Source: Arcuatula senhousia (Eukaryota; Mollusca; Bivalvia; Mytilida; Mytilidae). From it: a stretch of DNA of 64,000 nucleotides. A program made the position numbers and the translations under genes. Location: NCBI GenBank assembly GCA_963971305.1, contig OZ020305.1, positions 15,657,001 through 15,721,000 on the forward strand, read 5' to 3'. Shown here in pieces: positions 45,775 to 64,000 of the stretch. The notes beneath the pieces are model-generated. The model was not told the origin of the DNA and ran no database searches. It saw only the letters and a program-made list of their open reading frames with translations. The first letter of the stretch is position 1. Every line of letters starts with the position of its first letter.

Positions 45775-46213
45775 TGTGGACTGTATCGCGTACACTTATT
45801 CCACATCTCATTATTTTCTATTGCAACTAAACCTCTTTCAATTCTGTTGACTTCAATACTTACGGCAATAAAATCCGGCCTCCAAAAATATTTCGATTGT
45901 TGTTATTCTAGAAATGGTGTCGATCAAATGTGGATCCTGAAGAATTCGAAAGAACTATTGGAGATTCTTAACTCAAAATCAGTTTCATCTTACAACAGCA
46001 TCAAAACTTTCGATTTCTCCACTCTTTACACTTCCATTCCTCATGAACAACTCAAATCACGAATGGCACAGCTGATTAAATGCAGCTTTTTCAAAAAGAA
46101 TGGAAAACGCAGGTACAAATATTTGGTAGTCGATTACAGCAAGACTTACTTTGTCATCAATGAGTCTAAGAAAAAGAACAAATATACAGAAGACCAAATA
46201 GTCGACATGCTAG
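45775..46213 (+). pseudogene. Penelope-like reverse transcriptase fragment
   Basis: The frame reads TKPLSILLTSILTAIKSGLQ, then QMWILKNSKELLE and the motif FDFSTLYTSIPHEQL, which is reverse transcriptase motif A of Penelope-type elements, followed by KRRYKYLVVDYSKTYFV. These strings are typical of mollusc Penelope-like enzymes. The fragment stops before motifs B and C (catalytic Asp pair). The open frame to 46308 continues only by chance into other sequence. It is not functional as it stands. Confidence 0.8.
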
Positions 46214-46434
46214 TAGTAATGTGTGCCACTCTAGAACACTTTGACCTCGATGACCCCGAGTTCATTCCCATAGGCTCCATGTTAAATCGTTGCTATTTTT
46301 GGTACTGAAATACCCACCCAAGATCTCTAGCAGTAAAGTCGTGTGCAGTCATGCGGAACGGCGACTCGTCCCTTTCTTTCGCCCCTTTTTAGTTCGTCAC
46401 CAGTTTCTATTTAGTATTATTATCTATTATCTTT
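46214..46434. other. Putative outer end of the left palindrome arm
   Basis: It begins AGTAGTAATGTG directly where Penelope similarity ends. No gene is recognised. A minus-strand frame from about 46281 (MEPMGMNSGSSR) could be an exon, but nothing supports it. Confidence 0.35.
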
Positions 46435-46486
46435 TACCCTAGCCCTAGCCCTAAACCTTACCCTAGCCCTAACCCTAATCCTAACC
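46435..46486 (+). repeat. Degenerate telomere-like CCCTAA array
   Basis: About eight units of CCCTAA or CCCTAG with variants (ACCCTAGCCCTAG, CCTTACCCTAG, CCTAATCCTAACC). The mollusc telomere repeat is TTAGGG, so this is an interstitial telomere-like tract. It lies between the polymerase 3' end and the outer edge of the element. Confidence 0.75.
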
Positions 46487-46559
46487 ATTTGTTTTGTTAG
46501 TGTCGCCCTGTATGGACTCCTGTGTTGTAATACTCTTGTATGGATTATTTGTTGTTGTA

Positions 46560-46770
46560 TAGTTTTATCCTTGTTTTCTTTCTTCCTCCTCCTCCACCTC
46601 CTCCTCTTCCTCCTCTTTTCCCTCATTTCCCTCCTCCCCCCTCCTCATTTCCTCATTTCCCCCTCATTTTCCCTCATTTTTTCCTCATTTCCCTTCTCAT
46701 TTTCCCTCATTTTCCTCATTTCCCTCCTCATTTTCCTCATTTCCCTCCTCATTTTCTCTTGTTTTTTTCG
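46560..46770 (+). repeat. Pyrimidine tract (CCTCATTTTCC repeats)
   Basis: Almost pure C/T on the + strand, with repeated CCTCATTTCCCTCC and CTCATTTTCC. Open frames across it on both strands are low-complexity artefacts. On the polymerase strand it is a purine tract 200 bp after the stop codon. Confidence 0.85.
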
Positions 46771-46928
46771 TCTTTTGAGCTTCTTTTGTTCATGTATGGC
46801 TTAACTCTAATTGGTTCTTCTTTTCGTTTTTTTTCCGCTCTTTATGGGCTCTTTTTTTTTGTCTATGTTATTGTATCGATACCTCTTTCCTTTAAGTTTT
46901 CAATAAAAACTCAAAATCGGGTACAACT

Positions 46929-46952
46929 TTTATTAACATTCTATGTTTTATT
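46929..46952 (-). terminator. Poly(A) signals of the left polymerase gene
   Basis: AATAAA on the minus strand at 46947-46952 and 46929-46934, 20-45 bases after the TAA stop at 46972. Confidence 0.6.
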
Positions 46953-46971
46953 TACATTCTATTTTACAAAT

Positions 46972-49900
46972 TTAATATCCATAGGGTCTGGTGGTTAAAT
47001 CGTTCATAATCACTCTTTTGTCAAATACAATTCGATAGTCTTTCTTTTGTGAAACGGTTAACAGTTTTTGATTGCTTCTTTGGATCTTATATTCGTCTCT
47101 CACTGTCCTGATATCGCTTCTGTTGATGGTGACCATCTCCTTGATGGTGTCAAAGTTGATGTCTAAAGCATTCTTATAGTTCAATGTTATTCCACGAACT
47201 TTACACATAGTTCTGTTTCCTCCTCTCTCTGGAACGGCTAGTTTATACGCATAGTTTTTTGGTCCTCCCGTGACAAACTGTGTGATGGTGTTTCCTGGAA
47301 CTTCGTCCGTCAAATCTCCCAAGTAGTCCCCTAGTTCTGGTTTCCATTGTCCAGGTTTCGAGGTAAATACAATAGAGTCGGTATCACAGTACAATGTTCT
47401 TGGTCCCAAATTCTCCAGATAAGAATACAGTTTAAGTCTGGCCTGTGCTGTAGTGTAGACGGCGATGACGACATTCTTTTTCTTTTGAGTTTCAACGAAT
47501 TCTTCTTTATATTTCCATCGTAATTCCACCATTTCATCGTTAACAAACTGCATCCCGGTGACTTCAATTTTATCGCTGGTTAACATGTCAAAGTATTTCT
47601 TTTGTTCTGTAATGTAAGTGGTCTGTTGCATGTTGTTTCTTTGCCCAAATTTGCCCCAAAAGCTGTTCAACATCAGTTTGGCTAAAGACCTGATGCCGAG
47701 GTTCTTTTCTACTTTGTTATAGTCTAACTGTATCCCTTCCTTTTCCTCGTAGTCCTTGATGTATTGCCGTTTAGCCTCTTCAGATTGACACCATTCTGGC
47801 CAGCCACTAGCTTCTTGTTTCATTTTCAAGAAGGTATTGATGTAGTCGGTGAAGAGTCCTCCAGATTTCCGTTCGGGATCGTACTGTTCTACGTCTTCGA
47901 AATGCCATACTTCGTACATGTTGATGATGGAATACCCCTTTACCAATGCTTTCTTCAGTTCGTCGGTTACCCAAGTTCCCGTTATAGCTCTATCTTTTTC
48001 AGTATGGTTACAAGTCTCCTGCTGGTAGGATTCGGTACAGGTACGACAGAGTGGGAACATCAGTTTGTTGTTTATTCTGACTGGTAAGACGGGAATGTAT
48101 AGGTTTCTGGGTGGTAGAACTTTACATTTCACCAAGCCTTCGTACTCGTGGATGTCACCAAAGTTTTCTGTGATGATGATGGGATGTCCTTTGGGTACTT
48201 TTCCGGTTTTGTTGACAAACGGATAGAGCGATGTGACATCATAGTAGTTGATACTGTTTTCTTCCGCCTCTTTGTATAGAGTGAGGGCCTCTGTTCTTCC
48301 ACCATAAAAGGCTTCTCGTGGTTCTAAAGCTGGGACCATCTCTAGGGAATTGACAAAGTCGCTCATGGTTGTATCAGTTTTCAACTCCCTCTCAAAGTCA
48401 CATTCCCATTTCTCTACGTAAGTGTACCCTTCTTGCTGCAGATAGGTCTTTTTCTCTTGGGTCCTTTGATGTAGATCGTACATGGACATGTTATTGACCG
48501 TATTGATGGTCTCTTTTGAGTAACATCTTGGGCATCCATGCCAGTAACAGCCGTGAAATTCATACACAGTTCCATCATGGTATCCGTCTACTCTGTAGGG
48601 ACCGATCTGTTTTTCTCCTTCGTTCTCTGCGTGTTGGATCTGTATGTCTTTTATTGCGGATACGTATTTTAACCATTTCATGGCTTTGATAGAGTGCTTG
48701 TGTTCTGGTCGATAGCCTTGCGCTGGGATGAGGCCAATGGTATTCCACCGTAGAAACTTGGATCGAAAGACCAGGTTGCAGGCAGAGGCAATGGTGATAC
48801 TGTTTTGGAAGGGGTCGATTGGAGTACCCTCTAAAGTGTCCATGAACAGTTGTCTAAAGGTTAAACAGGCTTTTCTCAGTATGTCTACGTCTGTGATGCA
48901 GTACTTTAAGAGTTCTTCTTGGACATCAAATGGGTCGTTCCTGTGATCTTCATACCATTTCATGAATGTTATTCGGTCTTCCGCTTTCATTCCATCAGGG
49001 TTGTAGTAACGAATCTCTGGAAGAGTTTCTAATCGGGTGTTCTGGTTTTCCTTTCTATTAAAAAGGTGTGGGAAGTATCCTTTGTGGAGTTCGTCGAATC
49101 CAAACATTTTCGGGAGGTTGGTTAAGGCAGTGGGTAGAAAGTTGAGAGAATCTATCATCCGTATGCTGCAGCGTGGAATAGTAACTGCCATGTTCTTGGC
49201 GCCGTTGGGGATTATCTTGGGTTGAATTCCATGATGAAACAGGTATTGTAGAACGGGGAAAGAGTCGTATCCTTTAAAGTTGTGGCAAATAACGGTGGAG
49301 TTGTTGTTGTTTCCGGAAAATAACCAGTTGCAAAAGTCGTTGTTGGCGTTGTGTCCCCTAAAAATGAGTTGATTCTGTCCACAGATCTTGCAGATACTCT
49401 CTTTAGTTACTTCCTCCTCCATGCATACGGTGCACACCTTATGGACCACGCATAAGTTAGGTCGGTGTTCCATGGCTCCGCAGGTACTGGCTTTGCAATG
49501 GAAACAAGTTCCATTAGAATCCGGTTGGTATCCCGTATCGCACTCTACGAGGTCGTCTTGTGTGCATTCAAAATCAAAGAAGATGTAAGTTTGCCCTTCG
49601 GGAGGTTCTTTGATTACTATAGGCATCATGTAACACTGGTGGCTTGGATCGCAGTACTGTTTACAGGATCGACAATACATCTCGTCACACTCATGGTCTG
49701 TTTCCCTTTTCTCCATGTTGACAGCGTGGCCACAGTCTTTACACTTGTAGTACCATTTACATGTTGAGTTGCCCTTCTTTGTCTGTTCCAAATGAAGTTG
49801 GAAGCACTCTTTTCCTCTAAAGTTTCTGTTACATTGGCTACAGTTGATCCAATCGTCTTCACAGGGCTCGTGTATCTTCTTGCAAAGGATGCATGGGTTG

Positions 49901-51027
49901 TTACAGACATGTCTGTCCTTGTTACTATATCCCTTTTTACACGTCTGACAGTAATAGTTTCTGGTCAAGAATCCTGTTACAGTGGTGATGACATCGTAAT
50001 GGTCGTCGTGGTGGTAAAGATAGATCTTCTTCTCTGCATCTGGTCCCTCATAGATAACCCCGTTAAAGTAGTCCTTAGAAAAAACGGTGATTTGGTATCC
50101 TGACAGAACAGCTTGGAATTGTTTCAGTTCCTCGATACCGCAGGGTCCTTTTGGTACTTTGGCTTTTTCGTGAAGTTTTTCTGCTAATTCCTGTTGAATA
50201 CATCTTCCTTGGCGGATAGTGTCCCACATTGAGTGCTTATCGATTCTTGCTTTAGCAGTAACAATGGCTCTAGCACAGCATAAAGCGTCTCGGTTTCGGA
50301 TCCTGATGAAACTTTGTTTGTCTTTCAGCATTCTCTCGAGATCAACGTAATTGCACCGTTTCCGCCCGCTTCCTTCGGGAATGGATACGTGAAGGACATC
50401 TAATTCTAAACTTCCATCCAATACAAACTCCTCATGAGATTGTAATACTCTCTCTATTTCCTTTAATAGTAGTTCCGTAGTCAAGTCCTTGAGTTGTAAT
50501 ATGGGAAGGGCAATCGGGAAGTCGAGGGAGTTGGTTTCAATTGACAGTTTAACGAGGTCGTGTTCTTTCATCTCTTCTCCAATGGTTTGCAGGATGGAGT
50601 CGAATAACCGATATAGTGTTCTTGAGATGGAAGGCAGGTCCGTGACTTCAAATGCCTTAAAAGTGACGGTATAATGATTTCTCGAAGTTCCAAACTTGAG
50701 TATTCTTTTCTTCTCCTGCCGTTTGATGGTGTAATAGGATTTCGGATCATCCATGTGGAACGGTTGCCCTGCTCCTCTTTGTCCATGTCTTTGCTGATGT
50801 AACTCTAAAAGGCGTTGGTTGGCAAAGGCCTGGTTGCATTGGGTACATTCGTAACCCATTTGGTGGCGGGTCATGTGAGCTTGTAGATTCTCCCGCCTTG
50901 TAAAAGTCTTGGTGCATCTCGTACACGAGTAAGTCTCTCGGTGGTTGGTCCATCGTCTATGACGATGTAGCTGACTCATCTTCTCAAAATTGGCTTCGCA
51001 TTGGTTGCAGGTAAATTGCTTAGCCAT
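46972..51027 (-). CDS. polB: Protein-primed-type family B DNA polymerase with C2H2 fingers
   Basis: An uninterrupted 1351-codon ORF. Residues 5-81 hold three C2H2 fingers (Cys7/10-His23/29, Cys35/38-His51/55, Cys61/64-His77/81). Residues of about 350-470 are a Cys/His-rich region. The 3'-5' exonuclease motifs are FDFE (484-487), HNFKGYD (582-588) and YCITDVD (709-715). Residues of about 805-840 carry DGYHDGTVYEFHGCYWHGCP, resembling Vsr-type nucleases. Polymerase motifs are YYDVTSLYP (Asp930), KLMLNSFWGKFG (about 1117) and YCDTDS (Asp1215, Asp1217). All catalytic residues appear present. The arrangement matches the PolB of Polinton/Maverick elements and related viruses, but no integrase, ATPase or capsid gene is adjacent. 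The ATG at 51025 is preceded by a TTTCAG acceptor, suggesting a 5'-UTR intron. Confidence 0.95.
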   Translation of the reverse strand: MAKQFTCNQCEANFEKMSQLHRHRRWTNHRETYSCTRCTKTFTRRENLQAHMTRHQMGYECTQCNQAFANQRLLELHQQRHGQRGAGQPFHMDDPKSYYTIKRQEKKRILKFGTSRNHYTVTFKAFEVTDLPSISRTLYRLFDSILQTIGEEMKEHDLVKLSIETNSLDFPIALPILQLKDLTTELLLKEIERVLQSHEEFVLDGSLELDVLHVSIPEGSGRKRCNYVDLERMLKDKQSFIRIRNRDALCCARAIVTAKARIDKHSMWDTIRQGRCIQQELAEKLHEKAKVPKGPCGIEELKQFQAVLSGYQITVFSKDYFNGVIYEGPDAEKKIYLYHHDDHYDVITTVTGFLTRNYYCQTCKKGYSNKDRHVCNNPCILCKKIHEPCEDDWINCSQCNRNFRGKECFQLHLEQTKKGNSTCKWYYKCKDCGHAVNMEKRETDHECDEMYCRSCKQYCDPSHQCYMMPIVIKEPPEGQTYIFFDFECTQDDLVECDTGYQPDSNGTCFHCKASTCGAMEHRPNLCVVHKVCTVCMEEEVTKESICKICGQNQLIFRGHNANNDFCNWLFSGNNNNSTVICHNFKGYDSFPVLQYLFHHGIQPKIIPNGAKNMAVTIPRCSIRMIDSLNFLPTALTNLPKMFGFDELHKGYFPHLFNRKENQNTRLETLPEIRYYNPDGMKAEDRITFMKWYEDHRNDPFDVQEELLKYCITDVDILRKACLTFRQLFMDTLEGTPIDPFQNSITIASACNLVFRSKFLRWNTIGLIPAQGYRPEHKHSIKAMKWLKYVSAIKDIQIQHAENEGEKQIGPYRVDGYHDGTVYEFHGCYWHGCPRCYSKETINTVNNMSMYDLHQRTQEKKTYLQQEGYTYVEKWECDFERELKTDTTMSDFVNSLEMVPALEPREAFYGGRTEALTLYKEAEENSINYYDVTSLYPFVNKTGKVPKGHPIIITENFGDIHEYEGLVKCKVLPPRNLYIPVLPVRINNKLMFPLCRTCTESYQQETCNHTEKDRAITGTWVTDELKKALVKGYSIINMYEVWHFEDVEQYDPERKSGGLFTDYINTFLKMKQEASGWPEWCQSEEAKRQYIKDYEEKEGIQLDYNKVEKNLGIRSLAKLMLNSFWGKFGQRNNMQQTTYITEQKKYFDMLTSDKIEVTGMQFVNDEMVELRWKYKEEFVETQKKKNVVIAVYTTAQARLKLYSYLENLGPRTLYCDTDSIVFTSKPGQWKPELGDYLGDLTDEVPGNTITQFVTGGPKNYAYKLAVPERGGNRTMCKVRGITLNYKNALDINFDTIKEMVTINRSDIRTVRDEYKIQRSNQKLLTVSQKKDYRIVFDKRVIMNDLTTRPYGY

Positions 51028-51270
51028 CTGAAATAAAAATAAAACAGGTAAGTATAAAGTTGTCTATTGTTTCCTCTTTTTTAATTGTATGCCTTTCAAA
51101 TTATATACTGTCTATTGATTCCTCTTCTTTTCATTGTATGCCTTTCAAAGTTAAGTTGGATATGTATGAGTCCTACCTTTTCTCCCGTCGTTAAAACACG
51201 TCTGAACTCTTTGGTGTCTAATCGTAAAATGATTTCATTTCAAATGGTTTACCTGTATAATGGATTGTAC

Positions 51271-51290
51271 CACGTGATCACGTCACGTGA
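51271..51290 (-). promoter_or_regulatory. E-box cluster, putative promoter of left polB
   Basis: CACGTGATCACGTCACGTGA contains two CACGTG E-boxes around a CACGT-type half site, 245 bp upstream of the polymerase ATG. It is mirrored at 55404-55423. USF/MITF/Max-type bHLH-zip factors bind such boxes; the promoter role is inferred from position. Confidence 0.5.
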
Positions 51291-51812
51291 CTTCTGGATC
51301 AAACCGGTTAGAACTGGTTTGGACTTGATTTTACGTTTTGAAAGTTTTAGTTCATCGAATTGCTTTTTTTTGTTGGAATCGGTTCTTTAAATTTTTATGT
51401 TTGTTGGTTTTTAATTTTGTAAGTGTGTTTTCGTAGTTTGATGTTTTTTCATCAACAGATTTTCTTAACGGTAAGATTTTGTAAGTTTGTTCTCGTAGTT
51501 TGTTGTTTTTTCATCAACAGATTTTCTTTTGTGGTAAGATTTTGTGAGTTTCTTTTTAAAGTGGAAGGTTTTTCGTCAATGCAATTTTGATTTTGTTTGA
51601 ATTTGATGTACCGATTTTCGTTTTTAAGTCAAATGTTTTGATCTCTGTCTTGTATTTTTTGTGTCGAAAACGCTTCAACAGGTATTTTTAAAGGGGGCAA
51701 ATGGCTTAAAATGGGCATTTTAGGGTGAAATGGGTAAAATGGGGCTAAATTGGGTGTTTTGGGGGTAAAATGAGTAAAATTGGGGGGGGGGGGGTTGTAA
51801 TGGGGGATATTG

Positions 51813-51852
51813 GGGCTGCTGCTGCTGCTGCTGCTGCGGCGGCGGCGGCGGA
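51813..51852 (+). repeat. (CTG)7(CGG)5 microsatellite, mirrored in the right arm
   Basis: Seven CTG and five CGG units. The right arm has exactly seven CAG and five CCG units at about 54850-54888, so the arms agree even at a mutable repeat. Confidence 0.85.
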
Positions 51853-51955
51853 GGGTAAATGGCTGCTATTGTTGCTCCAGTAGAGGTAGTTTAGGGGGGA
51901 GAGGGATTTTGCTGTTCCATGGGAAGAATGAAAACGCGTATACTAGTTCGGATAG

Positions 51956-51961
51956 TTTATT
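51956..51961 (-). terminator. Poly(A) signal of the left small-protein gene
   Basis: AATAAA on the minus strand, 30 bases after the last open codon (51991). Mirrored at 54732-54737. Confidence 0.6.
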
Positions 51962-51990
51962 GAGTTAAAACATTCTTCTTCATGTAGTCT

Positions 51991-52670
51991 TTAAACGATC
52001 GCTTCTTCTTTAATGGGTTGGTTGGTTTCTTTTGGATTTTCCTTTTTTGTCTTGGGCTTTCTTCCTCTTGAGGTCTTTGTAGGCTTGTGGTTCATGGGTT
52101 TCTTGGTCTTTACATCGTTGAGGTTCTTTACTTCCTTGGACTTTGCTAGTCTTCTTCTTGAGTTCTTTGTAGGCTTTACTGATTTTCCATTATGGTTCAT
52201 GGGCTTCTTGGCCTTTACAACGTTAAGGTTCTTTACATCCTTACATCGTTGAGGTTCTTTACTTCCTTGGACTTTGCTAGCCTTCTTCTTGAGTTCTTTG
52301 TAGGCTTTACTGATTTTCCATTATGGTTCATGGGCTTCTTGGCCTTTACAACGTTAAGGTTCTTTACATCCTTTGTCTTCTCAGACTTAATTGATCGCCG
52401 TGTCTTCTTTAACTTTGCCATCTGTTCTCTCTTTGAGTCTTGTAGCTTTGTCAAGTGTCTTATTTCCTTGTATATAGCTTTTCCCAAACTTTCAAGTCTA
52501 TGTTCCACACTCTTTGGACGTTTGGATTGTTCTCCCGGTGGTACAACGTGTCGAGTCTTAGTTTGCGTTGCCCTTTTCTCTTTCGAGTCTACATGTTTCA
52601 CCTTCTCGTGGCGTGTAACATCACTCGGCCATGAAAACCGTCTATTGCATTCGGAGCACTGATAAGCCAT
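51991..52670 (-). CDS. Lysine-rich small C2H2 protein, left copy (frameshifted tail)
   Basis: The ATG at 52668 opens a 145-codon frame ending at 52233. It has one C2H2 finger (YQCSECNRRFSWPSDVTRHE then KVKH) followed by a lysine/arginine-rich tail like a linker histone. A 131-bp tandem duplication changes frame, so the tail ends early as NDVRM. The original tail continues in another frame at 52200-51991 and ends KEEAIV. The finger resembles those at the N-terminus of the polymerase next door. A DNA-binding or packaging partner, or a replication accessory, is inferred; no family is recognised. Transcription would start from the central block. Confidence 0.7.
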
Positions 52671-52822
52671 GTTCTCTCTTCGGTGTCTAATGTAAAACTA
52701 ACTCAATCTCCACCTGTCAATCCTTATATCCATATTTCACTTTCTTAACCTTATATTCGTTATGTAAAGGTCTTTAGCTCTTTAACGCTATGTAACACAT
52801 CTACCCTCACTTAAAATGTGGA

Positions 52823-52993
52823 ATTGGTCACTTTGTGGTCAAGTCCTGACTGACCACTGACCATAACCACCCTTATAATTCCAGATTATGCCTCTAGACC
52901 TCTTAAGCTCTCTAACGATATACAACAACTCTATATTAGACCTAATTTAAGGATTGGTCACTTTGTGGTCAAGTCCTGACTGACCACTGACCA
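52823..52993. promoter_or_regulatory. Two iterons of TGGTCA/TGACCA boxes, left arm
   Basis: A block of about 41 bp beginning ATTGGTCACTTTGTGGTCAA and ending GACTGACCACTGACCA occurs at 52823-52863 and 52953-52993, 130 bp apart. Each holds two direct GGTCA and two inverted TGACC boxes. Both are repeated inverted in the right arm. Operator or replication-origin use is inference. Confidence 0.6.
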
Positions 52994-53060
52994 AAACACA
53001 GTACATCATCAGAAAGCCATTGTCCTAGAGAAGACAATGCAACAAACCGGAAGGAAATCG

Positions 53061-53585
53061 GTCAAGGAATAACAAAGTTAGGGCCCGTTAAACACTAGTA
53101 GTATAGATGCACCGATTAGCTCGGATATCTCGAATTCGAATTTTCGCGGTAAAATGAGATTCCAAAAGGACCGGATGTGGCGTCACCGGAAGCAAGATGG
53201 CCGACCGGAAGCAAAATGGCGGAGCCGGAAGCAAGATGGCCACCGGAACCGGTTGTGACGTCATAAACATGCGCAAAAGGGACATATCCACATATCCACC
53301 TGAGAAATAATAAATGATCGGTCAAGGAATAACAAAGTTAGGGCCCGTTAAACACTAGTAGTATAGATGCACCGATTAGCTCGGATATCTCGAATTCGAA
53401 TTTTCGCGGTAAAATGAGATTCCAAAAGGACCGGATGTGGCGTCACCGGAAGCAAGATGGCCGACCGGAAGCAAAATGGCGGAACCGGAAGCAAGATGGC
53501 CACCGGAACCGGTTGTGACGTCATAAACATGCGCAAAAGGGACATATCCACATATCCACCTGAGAAATAATAAATGATCGGTCCC
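53061..53585. promoter_or_regulatory. Central bidirectional promoter block, tandem 260-bp repeat
   Basis: The 260-bp unit starts at 53061 and repeats at 53321. Each unit has GACCGGATGTG and three CCGGAAGC ETS-type sites, three YY1-type sites (CAAGATGGCC twice, CAAAATGGCGG), TTTCGCGG and a perfect CRE TGACGTCA (53256-53263 in the first unit). It lies between two divergent small-protein genes whose starts are about 400 bp away on either side. The 53088-53291 and 53348-53551 open frames are artefacts of this repeat. Confidence 0.7.
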
Positions 53586-53699
53586 TCTATACTACTAGTG
53601 TTTAACGGGCCCTAACTTTGTTATTCCTTGACCGATTTCCTTCCGGTTTGTTGCATTGTCTTCTCTAGGACAATGGCTTTCTGATGATGTACTGTGTTT

Positions 53700-53870
53700 T
53701 GGTCAGTGGTCAGTCAGGACTTGACCACAAAGTGACCAATCCTTAAATTAGGTCTAATATAGAGTTGTTGTATATCGTTAGAGAGCTTAAGAGGTCTAGA
53801 GGCATAATCTGGAATTATAAGGGTGGTTATGGTCAGTGGTCAGTCAGGACTTGACCACAAAGTGACCAAT
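53700..53870. promoter_or_regulatory. Two iterons of TGGTCA/TGACCA boxes, right arm
   Basis: Inverted copies of the left-arm iterons, at 53700-53740 and 53830-53870. Together the palindrome has four blocks arranged symmetrically around the central promoter. Confidence 0.6.
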
Positions 53871-54022
53871 TCCACATTTTAAGTGAGGGTAGATGTGTTA
53901 CATAGCGTTAAAGAGCTAAAGACCTTTACATAACGAATATAAGGTTAAGAAAGTGAAATATGGATATAAGGATTGACAGGTGGAGATTGAGTTAGTTTTA
54001 CATTAGACACCGAAGAGAGAAC

Positions 54023-54702
54023 ATGGCTTATCAGTGCTCCGAATGCAATAGACGGTTTTCATGGCCGAGTGATGTTACACGCCACGAGAAGGTGAAACAT
54101 GTGGACTCGAAAGAGAAAAGGGCAACGCAAACTAAGACTCGACACGTTGTACCACCGGGAGAACAATCCAAACGTCCAAAGAGTGTGGAACATAGACTTG
54201 AAAGTTTGGGAAAAGCTATATACAAGGAAATAAGACACTTGACAAAGCTACAAGACTCAAAGAGAGAACAGATGGCAAAGTTAAAGAAGACACGGCGATC
54301 AATTAAGTCTGAGAAGACCAAGGATGTAAAGAACCTTAACGTTGTAAAGGCCAAGAAGCCCATGAACCATAATGGAAAATCAGTAAAGCCTACAAAGAAC
54401 TCAAGAAGAAGACTAGCAAAGTCCAAGGAAGTAAAGAACCTCAACGATGTAAGGATGTAAAGAACCTTAACGTTGTAAAGGCCAAGAAGCCCATGAACCA
54501 TAATGGAAAATCAGTAAAGCCTACAAAGAACTCAAGAAGAAGACTAGCAAAGTCCAAGGAAGTAAAGAACCTCAACGATGTAAAGACCAAGAAACCCATG
54601 AACCACAAGCCTACAAAGACCTCAAGAGGAAGAAAGCCCAAGACAAAAAAGGAAAATCCAAAAGAAACCAACCAACCCATTAAAGAAGAAGCGATCGTTT
54701 AA
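54023..54702 (+). CDS. Lysine-rich small C2H2 protein, right copy (frameshifted tail)
   Basis: The protein sequence is identical to the left-arm copy over 145 codons (54023-54460). The frame breaks through the same 131-bp duplication (units at 54322 and 54453). The continuation in another frame runs 54493-54702 and ends KEEAIV. An identical frameshifting duplication in both arms implies that the arms were copied or homogenised after it arose. A poly(A) signal is at 54732. A truncated 145-residue product with its zinc finger intact could still be made. Confidence 0.7.
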
Positions 54703-55403
54703 AGACTACATGAAGAAGAATGTTTTAACTCAATAAACTATCCGAACTAGTATACGCGTTTTCATTCTTCCCATGGAACAGCAAAATCCCTCTCCCCCCT
54801 AAACTACCTCTACTGGAGCAACAATAGCAGCCATTTACCCTCCGCCGCCGCCGCCGCAGCAGCAGCAGCAGCAGCAGCCCCAATATCCCCCATTACAACC
54901 CCCCCCCCCCCCAATTTTACTCATTTTACCCCCAAAACACCCAATTTAGCCCCATTTTACCCATTTCACCCTAAAATGCCCATTTTAAGCCATTTGCCCC
55001 CTTTAAAAATACCTGTTGAAGCGTTTTCGACACAAAAAATACAAGACAGAGATCAAAACATTTGACTTAAAAACGAAAATCGGTACATCAAATTCAAACA
55101 AAATCAAAATTGCATTGACGAAAAACCTTCCACTTTAAAAAGAAACTCACAAAATCTTACCACAAAAGAAAATCTGTTGATGAAAAAACAACAAACTACG
55201 AGAACAAACTTACAAAATCTTACCGTTAAGAAAATCTGTTGATGAAAAAACATCAAACTACGAAAACACACTTACAAAATTAAAAACCAACAAACATAAA
55301 AATTTAAAGAACCGATTCCAACAAAAAAAAGCAATTCGATGAACTAAAACTTTCAAAACGTAAAATCAAGTCCAAACCAGTTCTAACCGGTTTGATCCAG
55401 AAG

Positions 55404-55423
55404 TCACGTGACGTGATCACGTG
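55404..55423 (+). promoter_or_regulatory. E-box cluster, putative promoter of right polB
   Basis: TCACGTGACGTGATCACGTG, the mirror of 51271-51290. The LINE insertion now separates it from its polymerase gene by 6.6 kb. Confidence 0.45.
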
Positions 55424-55604
55424 GTACAATCCATTATACAGGTAAACCATTTGAAATGAAATCATTTTACGATTAGACACCAAAGAGTTCAGACGTGTTT
55501 TAACGACGGGAGAAAAGGTAGGACTCATACATATCCAACTTAACTTTGAAAGGCATACAATGAAAAGAAGAGGAATCAATAGACAGTATATAATTTGAAA
55601 GGCA

Positions 55605-55610
55605 TACAAT
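55605..55610 (+). repeat. LINE target-site duplication, left copy
   Basis: TACAAT, repeated at 62224-62229. The left palindrome arm has a single uninterrupted ATACAATTAAAAAAG at this place. Confidence 0.85.
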
Positions 55611-55625
55611 AAATACAAAAAAATA

Positions 55626-55656
55626 CACTTCCGGTGTAATGGCGGCACGCAGCTAA
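55626..55656 (+). promoter_or_regulatory. Internal LINE promoter sites: ETS plus YY1
   Basis: CACTTCCGGTG (inverted CCGGAAGTG, ETS type) is followed at once by TAATGGCGGCACG (YY1 type), 15-45 bases from the 5' end. Mammalian L1 elements carry a YY1 site near their 5' end that sets the start. The role here is inferred. Confidence 0.5.
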
Positions 55657-55823
55657 ATAAATTGAAGATGCAGAAAACCCAAATTCAGTGACAATTACCA
55701 TACATCAATGACATTTTGTGATAAATACACAATGTATATAAGTACATAAACGTTTTATGTACAAAATTGCCAGGTTTCATCCCTGAAAACACGCACATCG
55801 TCACCATTGACAATCTGTTCAAC

Positions 55824-57755
55824 ATGAGCGGCAGAGATCCAAAACCGCCGACCAAATTTTCTGATTGTGTTACCGGCGACGACCTAGACGATATCTTCGA
55901 TGAAACCATTATTGACCCAAATACCGATTATGAACGGCCTGTCAATCATGAACAAGTAAACGGGAAAATAAACAATGTTTCCTTTAAAACATCCCCAGAG
56001 CGCCTAGAAAGATGGAAGTCCGCCATTGTTTCATATTTTGGACATGAAAACACCACAATACTTAAAGATGGAACTACAATCAAAGTAGTCTGTGATTTAG
56101 AAAAATCCAAAAACTCTGTTATTAAAATAAACTTTTATAAATCAGGAGCAGTGGTCATTCAAGGTGCAAAGTGCTCACTATTTACAATCACATACTTCAA
56201 AAAGATCAAAGCAAGTATGGACAGTCAGACAATTTCACATGAACAAATTGATAATGTCAATCAAATACCCAAAAGTCTGCCCAAAGACAACACTCCAGAA
56301 AACTCGTTTGACTCCTCGATCACATTTGCCAAAGCCTTAGCAAATAATGACACTTCTACACCAACAAAAGTTACACCTAATATTAATGCAAATCCTGCTG
56401 GCATTAATATCACACCCAAAGAGAGAATACAACAGCATAGTCAGTCACTTTCTGCCAAAATCGAGAATGTAAATAACTCTCTTTTGATCATTGACTCAAC
56501 AATGAAATCATTCATCAATAAATTATCAGACATCAAGAGTGCAACTGATAACTTAATTCCTACCATGAAAACAGAATATTTAAATTCAAACAAAAAGATC
56601 TTACAAATTAGTGAAAACGTTGAAAATATCAACAATAAAATCAAACACTGCAATCAAGCAGTTGAATCAATCCACACCAAGCTTAACATTCTGGATACAC
56701 AGCTCAAACAGAGTGCCATGGAGAAAAATGAAACTCATGAGAAAATTAATACAAAACTTCAAAATATTGAAGGATACTGTAGCCAAAACCATGAATCCTT
56801 AGAATTAGTTTCTAACAAAATGAAAGACCTACAACACCGTCTTGAATCTTTAGAGAGAGAAATCAACCCAAATTGTGCAAAGTCTGAGGAAATCTTTGAT
56901 AACATGATAGGACCGAAAAACACCAATGAAAATAAACAAACCCATTCTGATACATTATCAAAAGAAGCAACACAATGTGACTACTTAATTCTGAGCGACT
57001 CAATATTAAGAAGGATAAATCCTGTTAAATTTACACCAAATGGGAAAACCTTGAAAAGATTCATACGTGGAGGAATAAACACATGCGAGTCGTTTATCAA
57101 CAAACATGGATCAAAACTGAAACCCAAAACTGTTTTGGTAAACATTGGAACAAGAGATCTCCGAGCACCAAAGGGAATCGAGAATAAGAGTGTTTCACAG
57201 TTATATCAAACCCTGACAAACACTTGGCCAGAAGCTACAATTTTTATCCTACCAATTATAAGAAGGAAGGACACACCATATGGACAAATTAAACAAGCCA
57301 ACTTTATACTCACAAATGAAAGCAAGAAGTTCCAAAAGATTACAATCTTGGATGTATTTGACCCCACAGAGGACATGTTTTACGATCAGGCACATTTAAA
57401 CAACAATAAAGGTCTACCCGCAGTTGTACGACACTTGAAAACCAAGATGAACATGTACCCCGGCAAAAGTGAAACATTTCAACAAGGGAATAGCTTTAAT
57501 AGAAGCAATTATGTACAATACCCTAGTTATTTTGACAAAGGAAAACAATATCCACAACCGTCTCAACCAAGCCCTCCGAGACCACCATGGATGTTTCCGA
57601 ACAACTTTGACAAAGGAAAACATTATCCACAACCGTCTCAACCAAATCCTCAGAGACCCCCGTGGATGTTTCCAAATGACCAAATTCCACCACAATGGCA
57701 ACCACCTTGGTTTTGGCCACCACTGAACAACTACATGTACAACCAAAAATATTGA
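55824..57755 (+). CDS. LINE ORF1 protein with coiled coil and SGNH-type domain
   Basis: It is 643 codons from ATG 55824 (CAACATGAGCG); the frame is open a little upstream but without an ATG. Residues of about 50-115 hold a compact domain with INFYKSGAVVIQGAKCSLF. Residues of about 205-355 are heptad-like coiled coil. From residue 388, LILSDSILRRI gives a nucleophile-type Ser391 or Ser393, GTRDL lies near 444, and DQAHLN gives Asp521/His524. These are the blocks of the SGNH/GDSL esterase domain found in ORF1 of CR1-like LINEs. The C-terminus has two repeats of FDKGK-YPQPSQP-RPPWMFPN and a Trp/Pro-rich end. Its presumed role is RNA-binding and RNP formation; esterase activity is untested. Confidence 0.85.
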   Translation: MSGRDPKPPTKFSDCVTGDDLDDIFDETIIDPNTDYERPVNHEQVNGKINNVSFKTSPERLERWKSAIVSYFGHENTTILKDGTTIKVVCDLEKSKNSVIKINFYKSGAVVIQGAKCSLFTITYFKKIKASMDSQTISHEQIDNVNQIPKSLPKDNTPENSFDSSITFAKALANNDTSTPTKVTPNINANPAGINITPKERIQQHSQSLSAKIENVNNSLLIIDSTMKSFINKLSDIKSATDNLIPTMKTEYLNSNKKILQISENVENINNKIKHCNQAVESIHTKLNILDTQLKQSAMEKNETHEKINTKLQNIEGYCSQNHESLELVSNKMKDLQHRLESLEREINPNCAKSEEIFDNMIGPKNTNENKQTHSDTLSKEATQCDYLILSDSILRRINPVKFTPNGKTLKRFIRGGINTCESFINKHGSKLKPKTVLVNIGTRDLRAPKGIENKSVSQLYQTLTNTWPEATIFILPIIRRKDTPYGQIKQANFILTNESKKFQKITILDVFDPTEDMFYDQAHLNNNKGLPAVVRHLKTKMNMYPGKSETFQQGNSFNRSNYVQYPSYFDKGKQYPQPSQPSPPRPPWMFPNNFDKGKHYPQPSQPNPQRPPWMFPNDQIPPQWQPPWFWPPLNNYMYNQKY

Positions 57756-58485
57756 TAATGTAATTGAAAGATGTACAATTGCTTTTTTGTTTTATTTTGC
57801 CATTTCTTTTTGTTTTTTTTGTGTTTTTGTATTCCCATATGCAGTTAATGTGAATAGATACATATACATGTAATCATGTACATTGTTAATCAAGAATTTC
57901 ATTTATTGATTAATACCATATTCTTCAACTTTTCATTTATTAACTATGTCTTATCTTTTCTAGTATTTTTTATTGATACATGTATTTACCAAATTTACAA
58001 ACTTCTTCCAACCATTTAACTGGTGACAGCAAATACTTGTACACCTCTTTCAATACATTTAATTAACTTTTGTGTAAACATTTTGAAATTTAGAAAAAAA
58101 CAACATTTTTGTTAGACCTCAAGATACATGTTATATATGTAGATACGTTACTTTAATGTTGACTAAACATTTTTCATTTAATTATTATTTTTTTTAACTG
58201 TAGTTTATTTACCGCGTACATTTCCTGTCTCTTGTCGATTGATTAAGATTTACTTATATCTTAATCTTTTCTAAAATTTTGTTATTCCTATTGTTATCAT
58301 TGTCATGATTGTAGTTAATTTACTGCTTACATTTCATGTTTTATAACCTTACATATGCATTATTTATCATTGATAAACATACATGTATTTTAACTTAGTA
58401 ATGTAAGTTAGATCTAATATACTCTTTAGACATTTACAAGTCTAAAAAACAATTCACTGATTTTTGGGTTTTCCACAATTCTTTC
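57756..58485 (+). other. LINE inter-ORF spacer
   Basis: A 730-bp AT-rich stretch between the two LINE ORFs with many stops and no recognisable gene. It is long for a bicistronic LINE. Whether ORF2 is reached by reinitiation, an internal promoter or splicing cannot be told. Confidence 0.6.
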
Positions 58486-61400
58486 ATGAAACCAAAAGAA
58501 AACATTCTTACTAAACCACTTAAATCAGCCTTATGGAATATTGAAGGCTTTACTGTAGATAAAATTAATGATCCTTATTTTTTATCAGTCATTTCTGATT
58601 TTTATTTAATAGGCCTTATTGAAACCTGGACCAATGATACAGACTTAAATTTAGATATTTCTGGTTTTCAGATGATAGGAAAAAGTAATAGAACCAAACA
58701 TAAAAAAGCCAGAAGAAACTCAGGCGGCATTATTTTATATGCAAAAAACGCCATAGCTAAAGGAATCAGTAAACTAAAAAAATCACATTCAGACATCCTT
58801 TGGGTTAAGCTTGACAAAACCTTTTTTCATTTAGATAAAGATTTATATATTGCTACTATTTACATTTCTCCAGAAAGTTCTTCTTATACTAATGTATCTG
58901 GTATTGAACCAATCTATGAACAGCTACTTTCTGATGTCACTAAATACTCAGCTTTGGGGCACATTCTGGTCCAGGGTGATTTTAATGCCTATACTAATAA
59001 GAAACCTGATTTTGTTTTTAATGATAATCATTCAAATCAAGATGATTTGCTTTATGTTTCTGATGAAAATATGCCAAGGAATAATCTTGATCTCAAACTT
59101 GTCAACAATAGTGGTAAAATTTTACTGAATTTATGTAAAGAGTCTGGCCTCAGAATTTTAAATGGTAGAACTGTAGGTGATTTACAAGGAAAATTCACAT
59201 GTTTTACATACAATGGATGTAGTGTAGTAGATTATATGCTTGCTTCTAAAGATTTGATTAATGTAATTTCTGAATTTAATGTACACAACTTAACTTCATT
59301 ATCAAATCACTGTATTTTAAGCTGTTCATTACTTGCTTGCTTTATTCCACAGAATAAACAACAACTGCCACTGGATCCGATACCCAATAAATTTATATGG
59401 TCCCCTGAAGCTATTCAACTCTATAGTAAGAATACTAACAGTAAGGAAAGTATTTCCAAATTGAAAAGTTTTTTAGAAACAAATTTTAACAGCATTGACA
59501 ATGCATTATCAACCTTTAACTCAATTCTATATGATAATGCATCAAAATCTGCTAAGTTGGTGCAGAGACCCCAGACCCACAATAAAAAAGCTAAAAAATC
59601 AAATAGAAAACCTTGGTTTTCTGAATCTTGCAGAGAACTTCGAGTATCTGTCAAAAACTATGAAAAACTAGTCAACAAATATCCCTATAATGCAGAATAT
59701 AGAAAAAAATTCTACAGTCTGAGATCTAAACTTAGACGCTTAAACAAATATGAAGAGAAAAAATACTATCAATCTACAATCTCACAACTGAACTCATATG
59801 AAAAAGACCCCAAAACGTTTTGGAATATTATAAACAAACTCAACAACCAAAAACTTAGAAATAATAATTCTGATGAATTTCTGCCCCGAGAAGATTTTTT
59901 AAACTTTTACAAAAAATTAAACACAGATGACAATAACCATAACAATTTTCAAGCACAAGTAATGAGAGAATTCAACAATATTAAAAATAATAGCTCTAAT
60001 AGAAATCAATCAAATATTCTCAATTCTGAAATAACATGTGAAGAAATCTTGTCAGCTATTAAATCTGTAAAAAATGGTAAAAGTACCTCTGCTGACATGA
60101 TTTCTAATGAGATGCTTAAAAATGCTACTTCAGCTTTATTGAAACCACTTCATAAGTTATTTAATTTGATTTTTAGCTCAGGTCAATTTCCTGGAGCATG
60201 GAACGAAAGTTTCCTTGTTCTTATACATAAAAAAGGAGAAAAAATAGATCCTGGAAACTATAGAGGTATTTCAATAAGTTCAAACTTAGGTAAATTATTC
60301 AATAAAGTCTTGTATTATAGACTTGTTAAATTCATGGATAATGAAAATCTTATGAGCAAAAACCAAATAGGATTCAAAGAGAAATGTCGCACAAGTGATC
60401 ATATTTTTACTCTTAAATCTGTTATAGACCAATATAAAAACAACAAACAAAAAGTCTTTACTGCTTTCATAGATCTAAAGAAAGCATTTGATACTGTATG
60501 GAGAACTGGATTATTTTTTAAACTAATTAAAGGTAATATACCTCAAAATATATTCAACATTATTCAATCAATGTATACTAATACAACTACTCGAATCAAA
60601 TTCTCTGATGGATTAAGTCCATCCTTTCCATCAGAGAGGGGAGTCAAACAAGGCGATGTTCTAAGTCCCCTGCTTTTTAACTTTTTCATAAATGACCTGG
60701 TAAATAAGCTTGACAACTGTTCAACAGATCCAGTGGTTGTTGGTGATATACCTTTAAATATTTTATTATACGCTGATGACATTGTTATACTGTCAAAGAG
60801 CCAAGAAGGCTTACAGAAAAGTCTTGATATTTTAAATGAATATTGTATATCATGGAAATTACAAGTCAATACTGACAAATCAAAAATTATGGTATTTAAT
60901 TCAAACGGTAAAACATTTTTAAAACATTTTACATTTAATGAAACACTGCTTGAAACTGTTACAAGTTATTGCTACTTGGGTATAACTTTAAAGTATAATG
61001 GAAACTTTTGCCTTGCTGTAGACAGTCTTATGGAAAAGGCGAGAAAGGCATATTTTAAAATTAAGAAAACAATTGGTCTTAACAATGCATGTAAACTTTT
61101 AGAAAAACTTTTTGATAGTCTAGTTACCCCAATCCTTTTATATGGATGCGAAGTATGGGGTATTGACTTCAAATTTAAAGATTCAGATTCCTTTGAAAAA
61201 TTACATATAAAATTCATAAAAGAAATCTTAGGAGTTCACTGCAGAGCATCAAATGATGCATGCCGTGCTGAACTCAACAGAGTACCACTAAAAAACAAGA
61301 TAATATTTTCATCAATAAATTTTCTTCAACATATTATCTCATCTGAACACTCATTAATAAATAATGTATTTAAAAAGTCTCAAAATTCAAGCCCTTGGTT

Positions 61401-61956
61401 TAAAAAAATTAAAAATATTTTAGATGATCTTGGAATGTCATTTATAGCAAATGATTTAAACTTTTTAAAGAGCAATCTAAACCAAATTAAACAAAGAATA
61501 AACGACCAATGTTTTCAAAATCAACAATCTAATATAAATAAATCTGAAAAATTAGATTTCTTCAGAAAAGTCTACAGCACAGGCAAGAGGGCACCATACG
61601 TAGATATTCTGCAAAATAGAAATGATAGAGCTGCAGTATGTAAGATACGAATAAGCTCTCACACATTAATGATTGAAAGAGGAAGACATCTCCAAATTCC
61701 CAAAAATTTAAGACTATGTAATTTGTGTAATTCTGACCAGATTGAAGATGAAAATCACTTTTTATTTTATTGTTCAAAATATAAACAATTAAGAGAAACA
61801 TTTCATGATAAGTTATTAAACATTTTTCAAACCAAGAAGCATTTTTATTCCAAAAAGGTATATGACATTAACTTTCTCTTAAATAACACTTCATATACAA
61901 TACTAAAATTAACTTCCTCTTTCATATCTGATGGATTAAATATGAGAAAAAACTAA
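58486..61956 (+). CDS. LINE ORF2: AP endonuclease and reverse transcriptase
   Basis: 1156 codons, open throughout. The N-terminal APE-type endonuclease has LIETWTN, VQGDFNAY (about residue 163) and LSNHCIL (about 272), where the usual SDH reads SNH. The reverse transcriptase has AFIDLKKAFDTV (motif A, about 661), GVKQGDVLSPLLF (motif B region) and YADDIVILS (Asp764/Asp765). A C-terminal zinc knuckle, CNLC then ENHFLFYC, lies near 1077. These features and the ATTCTT tail place it in the L2/CR1 group. It reverse-transcribes its own RNA at nicked chromosomal sites. All reverse transcriptase catalytic residues are present; the SNH change may weaken the endonuclease or be tolerated. Confidence 0.93.
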   Translation: MKPKENILTKPLKSALWNIEGFTVDKINDPYFLSVISDFYLIGLIETWTNDTDLNLDISGFQMIGKSNRTKHKKARRNSGGIILYAKNAIAKGISKLKKSHSDILWVKLDKTFFHLDKDLYIATIYISPESSSYTNVSGIEPIYEQLLSDVTKYSALGHILVQGDFNAYTNKKPDFVFNDNHSNQDDLLYVSDENMPRNNLDLKLVNNSGKILLNLCKESGLRILNGRTVGDLQGKFTCFTYNGCSVVDYMLASKDLINVISEFNVHNLTSLSNHCILSCSLLACFIPQNKQQLPLDPIPNKFIWSPEAIQLYSKNTNSKESISKLKSFLETNFNSIDNALSTFNSILYDNASKSAKLVQRPQTHNKKAKKSNRKPWFSESCRELRVSVKNYEKLVNKYPYNAEYRKKFYSLRSKLRRLNKYEEKKYYQSTISQLNSYEKDPKTFWNIINKLNNQKLRNNNSDEFLPREDFLNFYKKLNTDDNNHNNFQAQVMREFNNIKNNSSNRNQSNILNSEITCEEILSAIKSVKNGKSTSADMISNEMLKNATSALLKPLHKLFNLIFSSGQFPGAWNESFLVLIHKKGEKIDPGNYRGISISSNLGKLFNKVLYYRLVKFMDNENLMSKNQIGFKEKCRTSDHIFTLKSVIDQYKNNKQKVFTAFIDLKKAFDTVWRTGLFFKLIKGNIPQNIFNIIQSMYTNTTTRIKFSDGLSPSFPSERGVKQGDVLSPLLFNFFINDLVNKLDNCSTDPVVVGDIPLNILLYADDIVILSKSQEGLQKSLDILNEYCISWKLQVNTDKSKIMVFNSNGKTFLKHFTFNETLLETVTSYCYLGITLKYNGNFCLAVDSLMEKARKAYFKIKKTIGLNNACKLLEKLFDSLVTPILLYGCEVWGIDFKFKDSDSFEKLHIKFIKEILGVHCRASNDACRAELNRVPLKNKIIFSSINFLQHIISSEHSLINNVFKKSQNSSPWFKKIKNILDDLGMSFIANDLNFLKSNLNQIKQRINDQCFQNQQSNINKSEKLDFFRKVYSTGKRAPYVDILQNRNDRAAVCKIRISSHTLMIERGRHLQIPKNLRLCNLCNSDQIEDENHFLFYCSKYKQLRETFHDKLLNIFQTKKHFYSKKVYDINFLLNNTSYTILKLTSSFISDGLNMRKN

Positions 61957-62229
61957 GTTTATAATCTTTCTGTTTTATGCATATTATTATACTATAACTG
62001 TTATAAAGGTTATTGTAAACACAATGCTTATAAAATCAATTCAAATATTATATGTTGTCATATAAATATAACATATATATACAATAAGTAGACACATGTA
62101 ATGACATACATATTAATTGTCAGGTTAAACATGTATTGTATTCTTTATATGTCACTTTATATAGGCCTTAACCATCTATTGTAGTTGAGTTTGAGCTAAT
62201 AAAATTATTCTTATTCTTATTCTTACAAT

Positions 62230-62284
62230 TAAAAAAGAGGAAACAATAGACAACTTTATACTTACCTGTGTTCTTTTGTTTCAG
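62230..62284 (+). other. Right-arm remainder with polB 5'-UTR acceptor
   Basis: This is the end of the right arm between LINE and polymerase copy. It keeps TTATACTTACCTG and a TTTGTTTCAG acceptor directly before the ATG. The sequence CTTACCTG is a splice donor only on the opposite strand. Confidence 0.7.
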
Positions 62285-62764
62285 ATGCCTAAGCAATTTA
62301 CCTGCAACCAATGTGAAGCGAGTTTTGAGAAGATGAGTCAGCTACATCGTCATAGACGATGGACCAACCACCGAGAGACTTACTCGTGTACGAGATGCAC
62401 CAAGACTTTTACAAGGCGGGAGAATCTACAAGCTCACATGACCCGCCACCAAATGGGTTACGAATGTACCCAATGCAACCAGGCCTTTGCCAACCAACGC
62501 CTTTTAGAGTTACATCAGCAAAGACATGGACAAAGAGGAGCAGGGCAACCGTTCCACATGGATGATCCGAAATCCTATTACACCATCAAACGGCAGGAGA
62601 AGAAAAGAATACTCAAGTTTGGAACTTCGAGAAATCATTATACCGTCACTTTTAAGGCATTTGAAGTCACGGACCTGCCTTCCATCTCAAGAACACTATA
62701 TCGGTTATTCGACTCCATCCTGCAAACCATTGGAGAAGAGATGAAAGAACACGACCTCGTTAAT

Positions 62765-63775
62765 AGAAAATAAAGAGATGTGGAATAAGTGTACGCGACA
62801 CAGCCCACAATTAAACGGCAATTTAGAAAAACCACAATGGACAACCGCCAGCAGCCTTCAACGAGGCCATTTGGCACTGCTCGTGGTTATGCAATTGGCC
62901 CATGGTCTAAATAAGATGCATATAATTCAAATCCAGCCCTGAAATAGTCACAGATAGACCCCCTTCTTAAACAAGGAACAGAAAACATAAAAAAGACAAG
63001 TACAAACGAAAGCTTTGTCAAGGATTCCTGGCTTAGGACAGGCACATGTAATATGTGGCGGGGTTAAACTAGTTTTTTGGGCCCAACCTTCCCCCTATCA
63101 ATATTCCCAGACGAAGCACAAAAACTAAACACACAATAAAAATCAAATCGATCAAAGTCCAATTCTACTAGAGAGAACCTAAGACAAAAAACAAGAACAA
63201 ACAAAAGGACGGTAAAGGAACTCTCTATAGAACACTCGCTGTTACTGACAGCTAGCTGAGAATCATCAATCGACTGATGTAAAAAAATCAAACGTATCGA
63301 TTTTAAATCCGACACAACACTTCAAGCAATAATGATTTAGTGAAGTGTCATCACACAAAACCGACACGCTTGATCGCTATAATGCTTAAAAATGACAATA
63401 GTAAAAACGTTTATCGAAGTTTTAAAGCGAGTATTAAGTTTTCAATATTTCTGCCAAAAAACACTAAATTCAAAGATTTAACTAAGATATTCATTTCATA
63501 TCCTTTCCGTAATAAATTTTGAAGCCAATTTTTCATTTCTATTGGATTGTTTTTAAATTTGTGAGCTTTATAAAAAACATTACCATAAAATACAGGATGT
63601 GATATTCCTTTCACTATAAGAAAGTGACGTGTACAATTAAATTTTTCAATAAGAGATCGATACTTGTGGAAGAATTTAGAAAAAGATTTTACTAATTTGT
63701 GGTATCGATAACCTTGTTTTAATAATTTTTCAGTAATTAAACGGTTTTTATTATTAAAATCAGAAACTGTCCATT
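62765..63775 (-). mobile_element. Penelope-like element fragment inside the right polB
   Basis: Reverse orientation. It has reverse transcriptase C-terminal codons (63776 down to about 63411), then about 640 bp of non-coding sequence shared with 38210-38770 and 42112-42219. It is 5'-truncated. The left polymerase gene supplies the empty site. Confidence 0.8.
63411..63770 (-). pseudogene. Penelope-like reverse transcriptase C-terminus
   Basis: The minus-strand frame reads RLITEKLLKQGYRYHKLVKS, then FHKYRSLIEKFN and GISHPVFYGNVFYKAHKF. These are the thumb-region motifs of Penelope-like reverse transcriptases. The ATG at 63612 only marks an internal Met. No GIY-YIG endonuclease motif is visible before the stop at 63411. 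Truncated and inactive. Confidence 0.75.
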
Positions 63776-64000
63776 GAAACCAACTCCCTCGACTTCCCGA
63801 TTGCCCTTCCCATATTACAACTCAAGGACTTGACTACGGAACTACTATTAAAGGAAATAGAGAGAGTATTACAATCTCATGAGGAGTTTGTATTGGATGG
63901 AAGTTTAGAATTAGATGTCCTTCACGTATCCATTCCCGAAGGAAGCGGGCGGAAACGGTGCAATTACGTTGATCTCGAGAGAATGCTGAAAGACAAACAA

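Follow-up and report, generated by a model that had tools for sequence, protein, structure and literature searches.

A candidate family of whole-element palindromic transposons related to Maverick/Polinton elements in the bivalve Arcuatula senhousia

A stretch of 64,000 nucleotides from the genome of Arcuatula senhousia (GenBank assembly GCA_963971305.1, contig OZ020305.1, positions 15,657,001 to 15,721,000; hereafter the window) contains two head-to-head arms, each carrying a DNA polymerase gene (polB) and a small C2H2 zinc-finger gene. Such an arrangement raises the question of whether a single locus has been rearranged or whether the palindrome is itself what moves. Here the palindrome proves to be the form that a mobile element usually takes, and the locus is not a one-off rearrangement. 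For the fuller reading, in which the window holds one copy of a dispersed, Maverick/Polinton-derived family of whole-element palindromic transposons that replicates by fold-back and relies on an integrase acting in trans, we estimate a probability of about 75%.

All genome searches were made in the window's own assembly, which comprises 1803 contigs totalling 1,036 Mb (1.04 Gb). Of 318 candidates found with a 490-bp polB probe, 40 matches were scored; the 16 head-to-head pairs among them, the window's included, account for 32, one pair of the opposite order (C5:48.17M) for two, and the other six had no partner in that list. Nine other palindromes measured 13,533-14,229 bp. In a polB protein search, 34 of 2038 candidates were scored, and these loci reduce to 27 elements: seven pairs within the list, four loci partnered via the probe list, and 16 others. 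An inverted arm was present at the predicted mirror place in nine of the 14 checked among these 16 (C762 and C1686 were left out; C762 is palindromic at its spacer, L088). As for the five odd loci, L071 has a shortened second arm of which just the outer end remains, three have no arm sequence in the ~3 kb beyond the centre, and one has a broken arm adjoining a 2.6-kb palindromic derivative (L067 1237-3854, C3:72593132-72595749) that shares the family's ends and spacer and has no polB match. A nested insertion at C3:72.59M was considered and rejected, the flanks having no matching 6-bp duplication. At the five loci, no integrase, hexon or protease match lies within 5.3 kb upstream of polB. An earlier note on this DNA, written from the sequence alone, had proposed, as one of two readings, a distinct class of palindromic PolB transposon; the opposite outcome that it named was other copies in the form of one-armed Polintons carrying the usual set of genes. 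The latter were looked for and not found among the copies read, and the many dispersed head-to-head copies, with Maverick ends and 6-bp duplications in those read at both ends, support the former. The opposite-order pair is a tail-to-tail palindrome inside polB (L030, C5:48174000-48181000) with arms 99.85% alike and spacer cores on the outer sides, and C6:3635227/3639693 may resemble it.

The limits of the element are sharply drawn. In the window it begins AGTAGT at 46212 and ends ACTACT at window-equivalent 68076, ~4 kb beyond the window end, with a CATGCT 6-bp duplication on either side. The whole palindrome sits inside a Penelope-like element (PLE), a reverse transcriptase fragment of which adjoins the left arm on its left; among 120 homologues listed of 1087, 95 have alignments ending exactly at residue 130, base 46212. 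Before the sequence past 64000 was read, the right end was forecast at ~68.1 kb, with (ACT)2, CATGCT and a continuing PLE. The sequence has ACTACT at 68076, then CATGCT, then the PLE frame onward, which supplies the mirrored end that the note had suggested seeking there. The same AGTAGT/ACTACT ends and perfect 6-bp target duplications occur in 10 of the 10 palindromes read at both ends (the window and nine of the 15 other pairs), two of which had their ends located by searching for the motif beside a matching duplication. According to PMC8097293, vertebrate Mavericks make 6-bp duplications, and their commonest end motif is (AGT)2/(ACT)2. AGTAGT also occurs at the spacer edge (53097) and was considered as a second terminus; the hexamer is found 38 times in the window, against 26 expected. 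The features of the locus, in window coordinates, are as follows.

46206-46211, no strand: 6-bp target-site duplication CATGCT, left copy; its counterpart on the right is at window-equivalent 68077-68082, outside the window
46212-46217, plus strand: left terminus (AGT)2, the outer Maverick end motif, where PLE homologues stop aligning
46218-46971, no strand: non-coding sequence at the outer end of the left arm, with telomere-like and C/T-rich tracts; matches the ends of other copies
46972-51027, minus strand: left polB, 1351 aa, with N-terminal C2H2 fingers and DNA_pol_B_2; no internal stop
52233-52670, minus strand: left small Lys-rich C2H2 gene, 145 aa as read, truncated by a 131-bp tandem duplication (52107-52368)
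53117-53576, no strand: central spacer, non-palindromic; homologous spacers occur in other copies in either orientation
53577-55610, no strand: inner right arm, an inverted copy of ~51085-53116
54023-54460, plus strand: right small Lys-rich C2H2 gene, 145 aa as read, with the same break and a 131-bp tandem duplication (54320-54581)
55611-62223, plus strand: long interspersed nuclear element (LINE), a later insertion and not part of the palindrome; target duplication TACAAT at 55605-55610 and 62224-62229
62230-62761, plus strand: right arm resumes; right polB codons 1-159, start at 62285
62762-63763, minus strand: Penelope-like fragment of ~1 kb, a later insertion that interrupts the right polB at codon 159
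63764-64000, plus strand: right polB resumes (codons 160-238) and runs off the window; the arm goes on to ACTACT at window-equivalent 68076

Comparison of the window with itself by BLAST pairs 51080-53116 with 55613-53577 (99.66% identity over 2038 bp), 50549-51089 with 62763-62224 (98.5% over 541 bp) and 50314-50550 with 64000-63764 (99.6% over 237 bp), a similarity well above chance level. This bears out the inverted copy noted earlier (51028-53107 against 53586-55610 plus 62230-62284), as well as a polymerase gene running outward on both sides, open on the left (46972-51027, minus strand) and interrupted on the right (from 62285, plus strand), and a small C2H2 gene in each arm (52233-52670, minus strand, and 54023-54460, plus strand). 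The arms, put at ~7.4 kb in that note, are corrected to ~6.9 kb. About 220 bp inside the left terminus, at 46434-46486, lies a telomere-like tract of degenerate TTAGGG whose G-rich strand points to the element end, with a long C/T-rich tract inward of it.

The left polB matches DNA_pol_B_2 in Pfam (E 6e-52), and its zf-C2H2 fingers were recognised as two stretches by Pfam and three by pattern. A model of its last 871 residues (pTM, the predicted template-modelling score, 0.82) has phi29 DNA polymerase as its best fold match (E 4e-21), and the residues of what we take to be the exo and pol motifs are conserved in a 15-sequence alignment. Judged by sequence and modelled fold, the window polB is of the protein-primed type. 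The N-terminal model, with a low pTM of 0.47, matched zinc-finger structures at E <= 0.001, these making up nearly all of the 50 rows listed, among which there was no OTU protein; in a sequence search of the PDB, the best 60 of 130 rows were zinc-finger matches. There were 112 database matches to the left polB, four of them to the zinc fingers only. Most named matches come from bivalves (Mytilus, Mya, Ruditapes, Mercenaria and Saccostrea), and a tree of 33 rows places the window protein in a 17-row group (support 100/100) containing every named bivalve row, its position inside that group having weak support (83/70). A C2H2 pattern lies within the first 140 residues of 35 of the 59 matches of at least 1250 aa. 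The right polB is interrupted by the 1-kb insert after codon 159 and is also not open throughout. Across the genome, 30 of the 34 scored polB frames lack stops, and the ratio of nonsynonymous to synonymous substitution (dN/dS) is 0.18 over 655 codons (window versus three other elements, four loci), a value that indicates that polB is under purifying selection between copies. The small C2H2 gene has two database relatives at 55-56% identity. An identical 131-bp tandem duplication truncates both window copies at one and the same point; for copy L004, the alignment extends over all 169 residues of the relative in one stretch. Viral contigs scanned by protein, by alignment and by degenerate motif yielded no relative, and no Rfam family reached its gathering score in the window.

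Ordinary Mavericks are numerous in the same genome, and they provide queries for the genes that the palindrome appears to lack. A Maverick-type integrase query, for which 109 of 1313 candidates were scored, returned 129 matches; many of these have open frames, and an ATPase-like frame stood beside the integrase in the two loci inspected. One of these Mavericks is a 9,336-bp element at C4:20644032-20653367 (L031, L044) with 109-bp inverted repeats (96%) and the duplication CAGGTA, in which integrase, ATPase-like and distant C2H2/polB-like frames all lie on one strand. By eye no capsid-like frame stood out among its long frames, and no search aimed at capsid was made. End matches, with 40 of 69 candidates scored, suggest that there are further elements of this kind, 9-10 kb in length. 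Neither the C4 integrase nor that of L001, an adintovirus-like contig, had a tblastn match in the window; the C4 integrase had none in the rest of the right arm either, and it matched the control, L043, at 96%. Queries that we take to be hexon-, protease- and ATPase-like, labels which Pfam did not supply (from L001/L002 and pieces of the C4 element), gave no tblastn match in the window, and ATPase-, hexon- and protease-like queries gave none in the rest of the right arm. The earlier statement that integrase, ATPase, protease and capsid genes are not visible in the left arm agrees with these searches, and its suggestion to look for integrase, ATPase and capsid genes in relatives was taken up for integrase, hexon and protease at the five odd loci described above. 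L001 is filed under a metagenome-assembled genome (MAG) of Bacteroidia and carries a TATA-binding-protein domain (7189-7725; Pfam TBP, E 1.5e-27) near its integrase and polB. L002, a contig in the MAG of a Bathymodiolus symbiont, resembles mussel DNA and has a broken C2H2-polB, a divergent C2H2 frame and an ATPase-like frame (Walker-A by eye).

One relative of the C4 element is itself a palindrome. At L043 1273-8399 (C7:55751572-55758698) lies a 7,127-bp palindrome of that family with arms 99.94% alike, AGTAGT/ACTACT ends, the duplication ATGTTT, and integrase and ATPase-like matches in each arm. Its axis reads CCAGTGTC-CATAA-GACACTGG, a 5-nt hairpin axis. The arms are ~97% identical to an element on C14 whose ends are 9.3 kb apart, with the homology reaching the axis. 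This is good evidence that ordinary Mavericks give rise to palindromes by fold-back and that the resulting molecule is able to integrate. Another pair of inverted integrase matches lies at C11:31959580/31964781.

In the window, the centre is a ~200-bp non-palindromic core enlarged by a 260-bp tandem duplication (53057-53316/53317-53576). Five of the eight centres read earlier have a spacer homologous to that of the window with the same junction (six copies, counting the window); over these six, the spacer lies one way in three and the other way in three. A 21-base core pattern (first base incorrect), allowing up to 3 mismatches, gave 90 matches in the genome versus 6 with a reversed control, corresponding to ~80 spacers, not all of them separate elements. 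Twenty were sampled in list order, omitting loci seen previously, and 14 of them lie between inverted arms that are 83.5-100% alike, with a spacer of 181-237 bp. Sites that are presumably of ETS, YY1 and CRE type recur in the spacers, and the window spacer has what looks to us like an NRF1 site. For a putative E2F-like site, recurrence among the 20 spacers is biased because the search pattern overlaps it; by the same pattern it is absent from the window copy. We infer that the spacer may be a divergent promoter for both arms.

The likeness of the arms bears on how the element is copied. Over approximately the first 480 bp, the two ends within one element are 98.75-100% alike in ten elements, and the ends of different elements are 65.8-99.3% alike. 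Since ends are alike within an element and diverged between elements, both arms probably derive from one, which is copied when the element is mobilised. In some sampled copies the inner arms have diverged (83.5%, 95.9% and 95.9%), which argues against permanent conversion on the chromosome; the pattern would be that expected if the arms were identical at the birth of the element and then aged as long terminal repeats do. The window arms differ by 11 substitutions in 2791 bp of the inner part (two spacer-edge mismatches and indels excluded) and by 14 in 4102 bp of the outer part, and an initial idea of very few arm differences was revised on these counts.

These observations suggest the following cycle. 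The family would have originated when a Maverick strand snapped back, as the C7 integrase palindrome shows for another family. Its own protein-primed polymerase would replicate it from the (AGT)2 ends, and a single strand could fold back around the spacer into a ~7-kb duplex with a spacer loop. By reading one arm, the loop and then the other arm, the polymerase would produce a new molecule with two fresh copies of one arm. The spacer would serve both arms as a divergent promoter, and integration would be performed in trans by the integrase of ordinary Mavericks in the same genome. The earlier suggestion of an inverted product of protein-primed replication remains a plausible origin; its particular route, the joining of two element ends, fits less well, and fold-back is preferred because both the spacer and the integrase palindrome fit it better. 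A more specific form of this model, which we advance tentatively and consider less likely than not, takes the working form to be a ~7-kb hairpin with one protein-primed open end and one spacer-looped end. The 14-kb palindrome would then be the unfolded duplex, the arms would be re-made identical at each cycle, the integrase would be borrowed, and the lineage would be autonomous for its polymerase and dependent for integration.

Several findings weigh against a cycle of this kind as a general account. One-armed copies exist (three of the 27 polB elements), six of the 20 sampled spacers have no mirror arm, three of the eight centres read show no spacer match between the arms, and at C5:48.17M the fold of the palindrome lies within polB. 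The integrase-bearing ends that were read look different by eye from those of the palindrome once past AGTAGT. Furthermore, seven of the 11 inner substitutions in the window fall within 54 bp (50990-51043), around the polB start, a clustering equalled by 0 of 20,000 random placements; on account of this dense patch, exchange between copies probably happens as well. The patch resembles a conversion or recombination tract from another copy. Patchy differences of this sort would also be produced by gene conversion between arms after insertion, as in sex-chromosome palindromes, which would make fold-back unnecessary, and large inverted repeats are known to undergo conversion elsewhere. Conversion of this kind is nonetheless unlikely to be the explanation, given that the diverged inner arms cited above show that not every insertion is maintained, and that ten copies have near-identical ends though the copies differ by up to a third.

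We consider it about equally improbable that the element is a passenger: a satellite of snap-back origin, itself defective, that depends wholly on a capsid-bearing Maverick or virus as helper for its amplification and integration, and in which polB has been kept by chance. The missing integrase and capsid matches in the window and the rest of the right arm, the abundance of integrase-bearing Mavericks and the snap-back satellite genomes described for adeno-associated virus (AAV; PMC8235507) would all suit a passenger, whereas the purifying selection on polB and its mostly open frames imply that polB matters to the element. Two ordinary Mavericks inserted head to head, or a single chromosomal inverted duplication, would equally give the head-to-head arms of the window but are already contradicted, as each of the 10 copies read at both ends has just one 6-bp duplication, set around the entire palindrome, and the spacer is homologous across separate copies; we give this explanation almost no weight. 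Fold-back chimeras are a known artefact of long reads, yet an assembly or read artefact is an extremely improbable explanation here: the spacer is not palindromic, the LINE and PLE insertions are confined to one arm, the target duplications at the two outer ends match, and many loci share the structure.

By its ends, its target duplication and its polymerase, the element belongs with the Mavericks; by its gene content and the length of its inverted repeats, it is not a complete Maverick. It shares with Mavericks/Polintons the (AGT)2//(ACT)2 ends, the 6-bp duplications, a polB of the protein-primed type and a size within the 12.7-24.6 kb given in PMC8097293. The vertebrate inverted repeats reported there are 46-1,447 bp, in contrast to arms of ~6.9 kb here, and the present element differs further in having two polB copies, a small Lys-rich C2H2 gene and a spacer core, and no integrase, ATPase, capsid or protease match. 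Adintoviruses, as defined in PMC11071296, have a PolB with an OTU-like N-terminal domain, a hexon and a chromodomain integrase. The window polB is related to that of the adintovirus-like L001 (polB and an rve integrase with a chromodomain); unlike adintoviruses, the element shows no hexon or integrase match and has C2H2 fingers at the polB N-terminus. Snap-back adenovirus genomes occur in incomplete particles. A long inverted duplication of one genome end is common to these, to the snap-back genomes of AAV (PMC8235507) and to the present element; snap-back genomes are described as by-products or satellites of a virus, whereas here the form is inherited, multi-copy and integrated, with a shared junction. 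Teratorn (PMC6431247) is also a large animal transposon with long inverted repeats, but is portrayed there as a piggyBac-type element fused with a herpesvirus, 41-182 kb in size, and not as a whole-element palindrome. Our searches of the open-access literature found no palindromic Maverick or Polinton. Foldback and Galileo of Drosophila are of a different superfamily, marked by a relationship to P-superfamily transposases, and have no polB, in contrast to the window element with its polB and Maverick ends. The likeness is that these transposons (named in PMC8504770) consist mostly of very long inverted repeats.

The LINE in the right arm has open frames at 55767-57755 (662 aa) and 58486-61956 (1156 aa), the latter with endonuclease and reverse transcriptase matches, and the fragment at 62762-63763 is one that we assign, presumptively, to the Penelope-like family. 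Left of the Penelope-like fragment that adjoins the left arm is a decayed LINE (42558-45225) with 33-41% protein identity to the LINE in the right arm.

To our knowledge, the replication of Mavericks has never been directly seen, and through this family it becomes testable. A model in which one arm is copied predicts that the arms start out identical and diverge as the insertion ages, that hairpin intermediates occur, and that the element depends on a foreign integrase. Palindromic derivatives are present in two Maverick families of one genome, and one of them became a multi-copy element: a Maverick lineage that kept its ends, its target duplication and its polymerase, came to consist almost entirely of inverted repeats, and nevertheless multiplied and diversified within a single genome.

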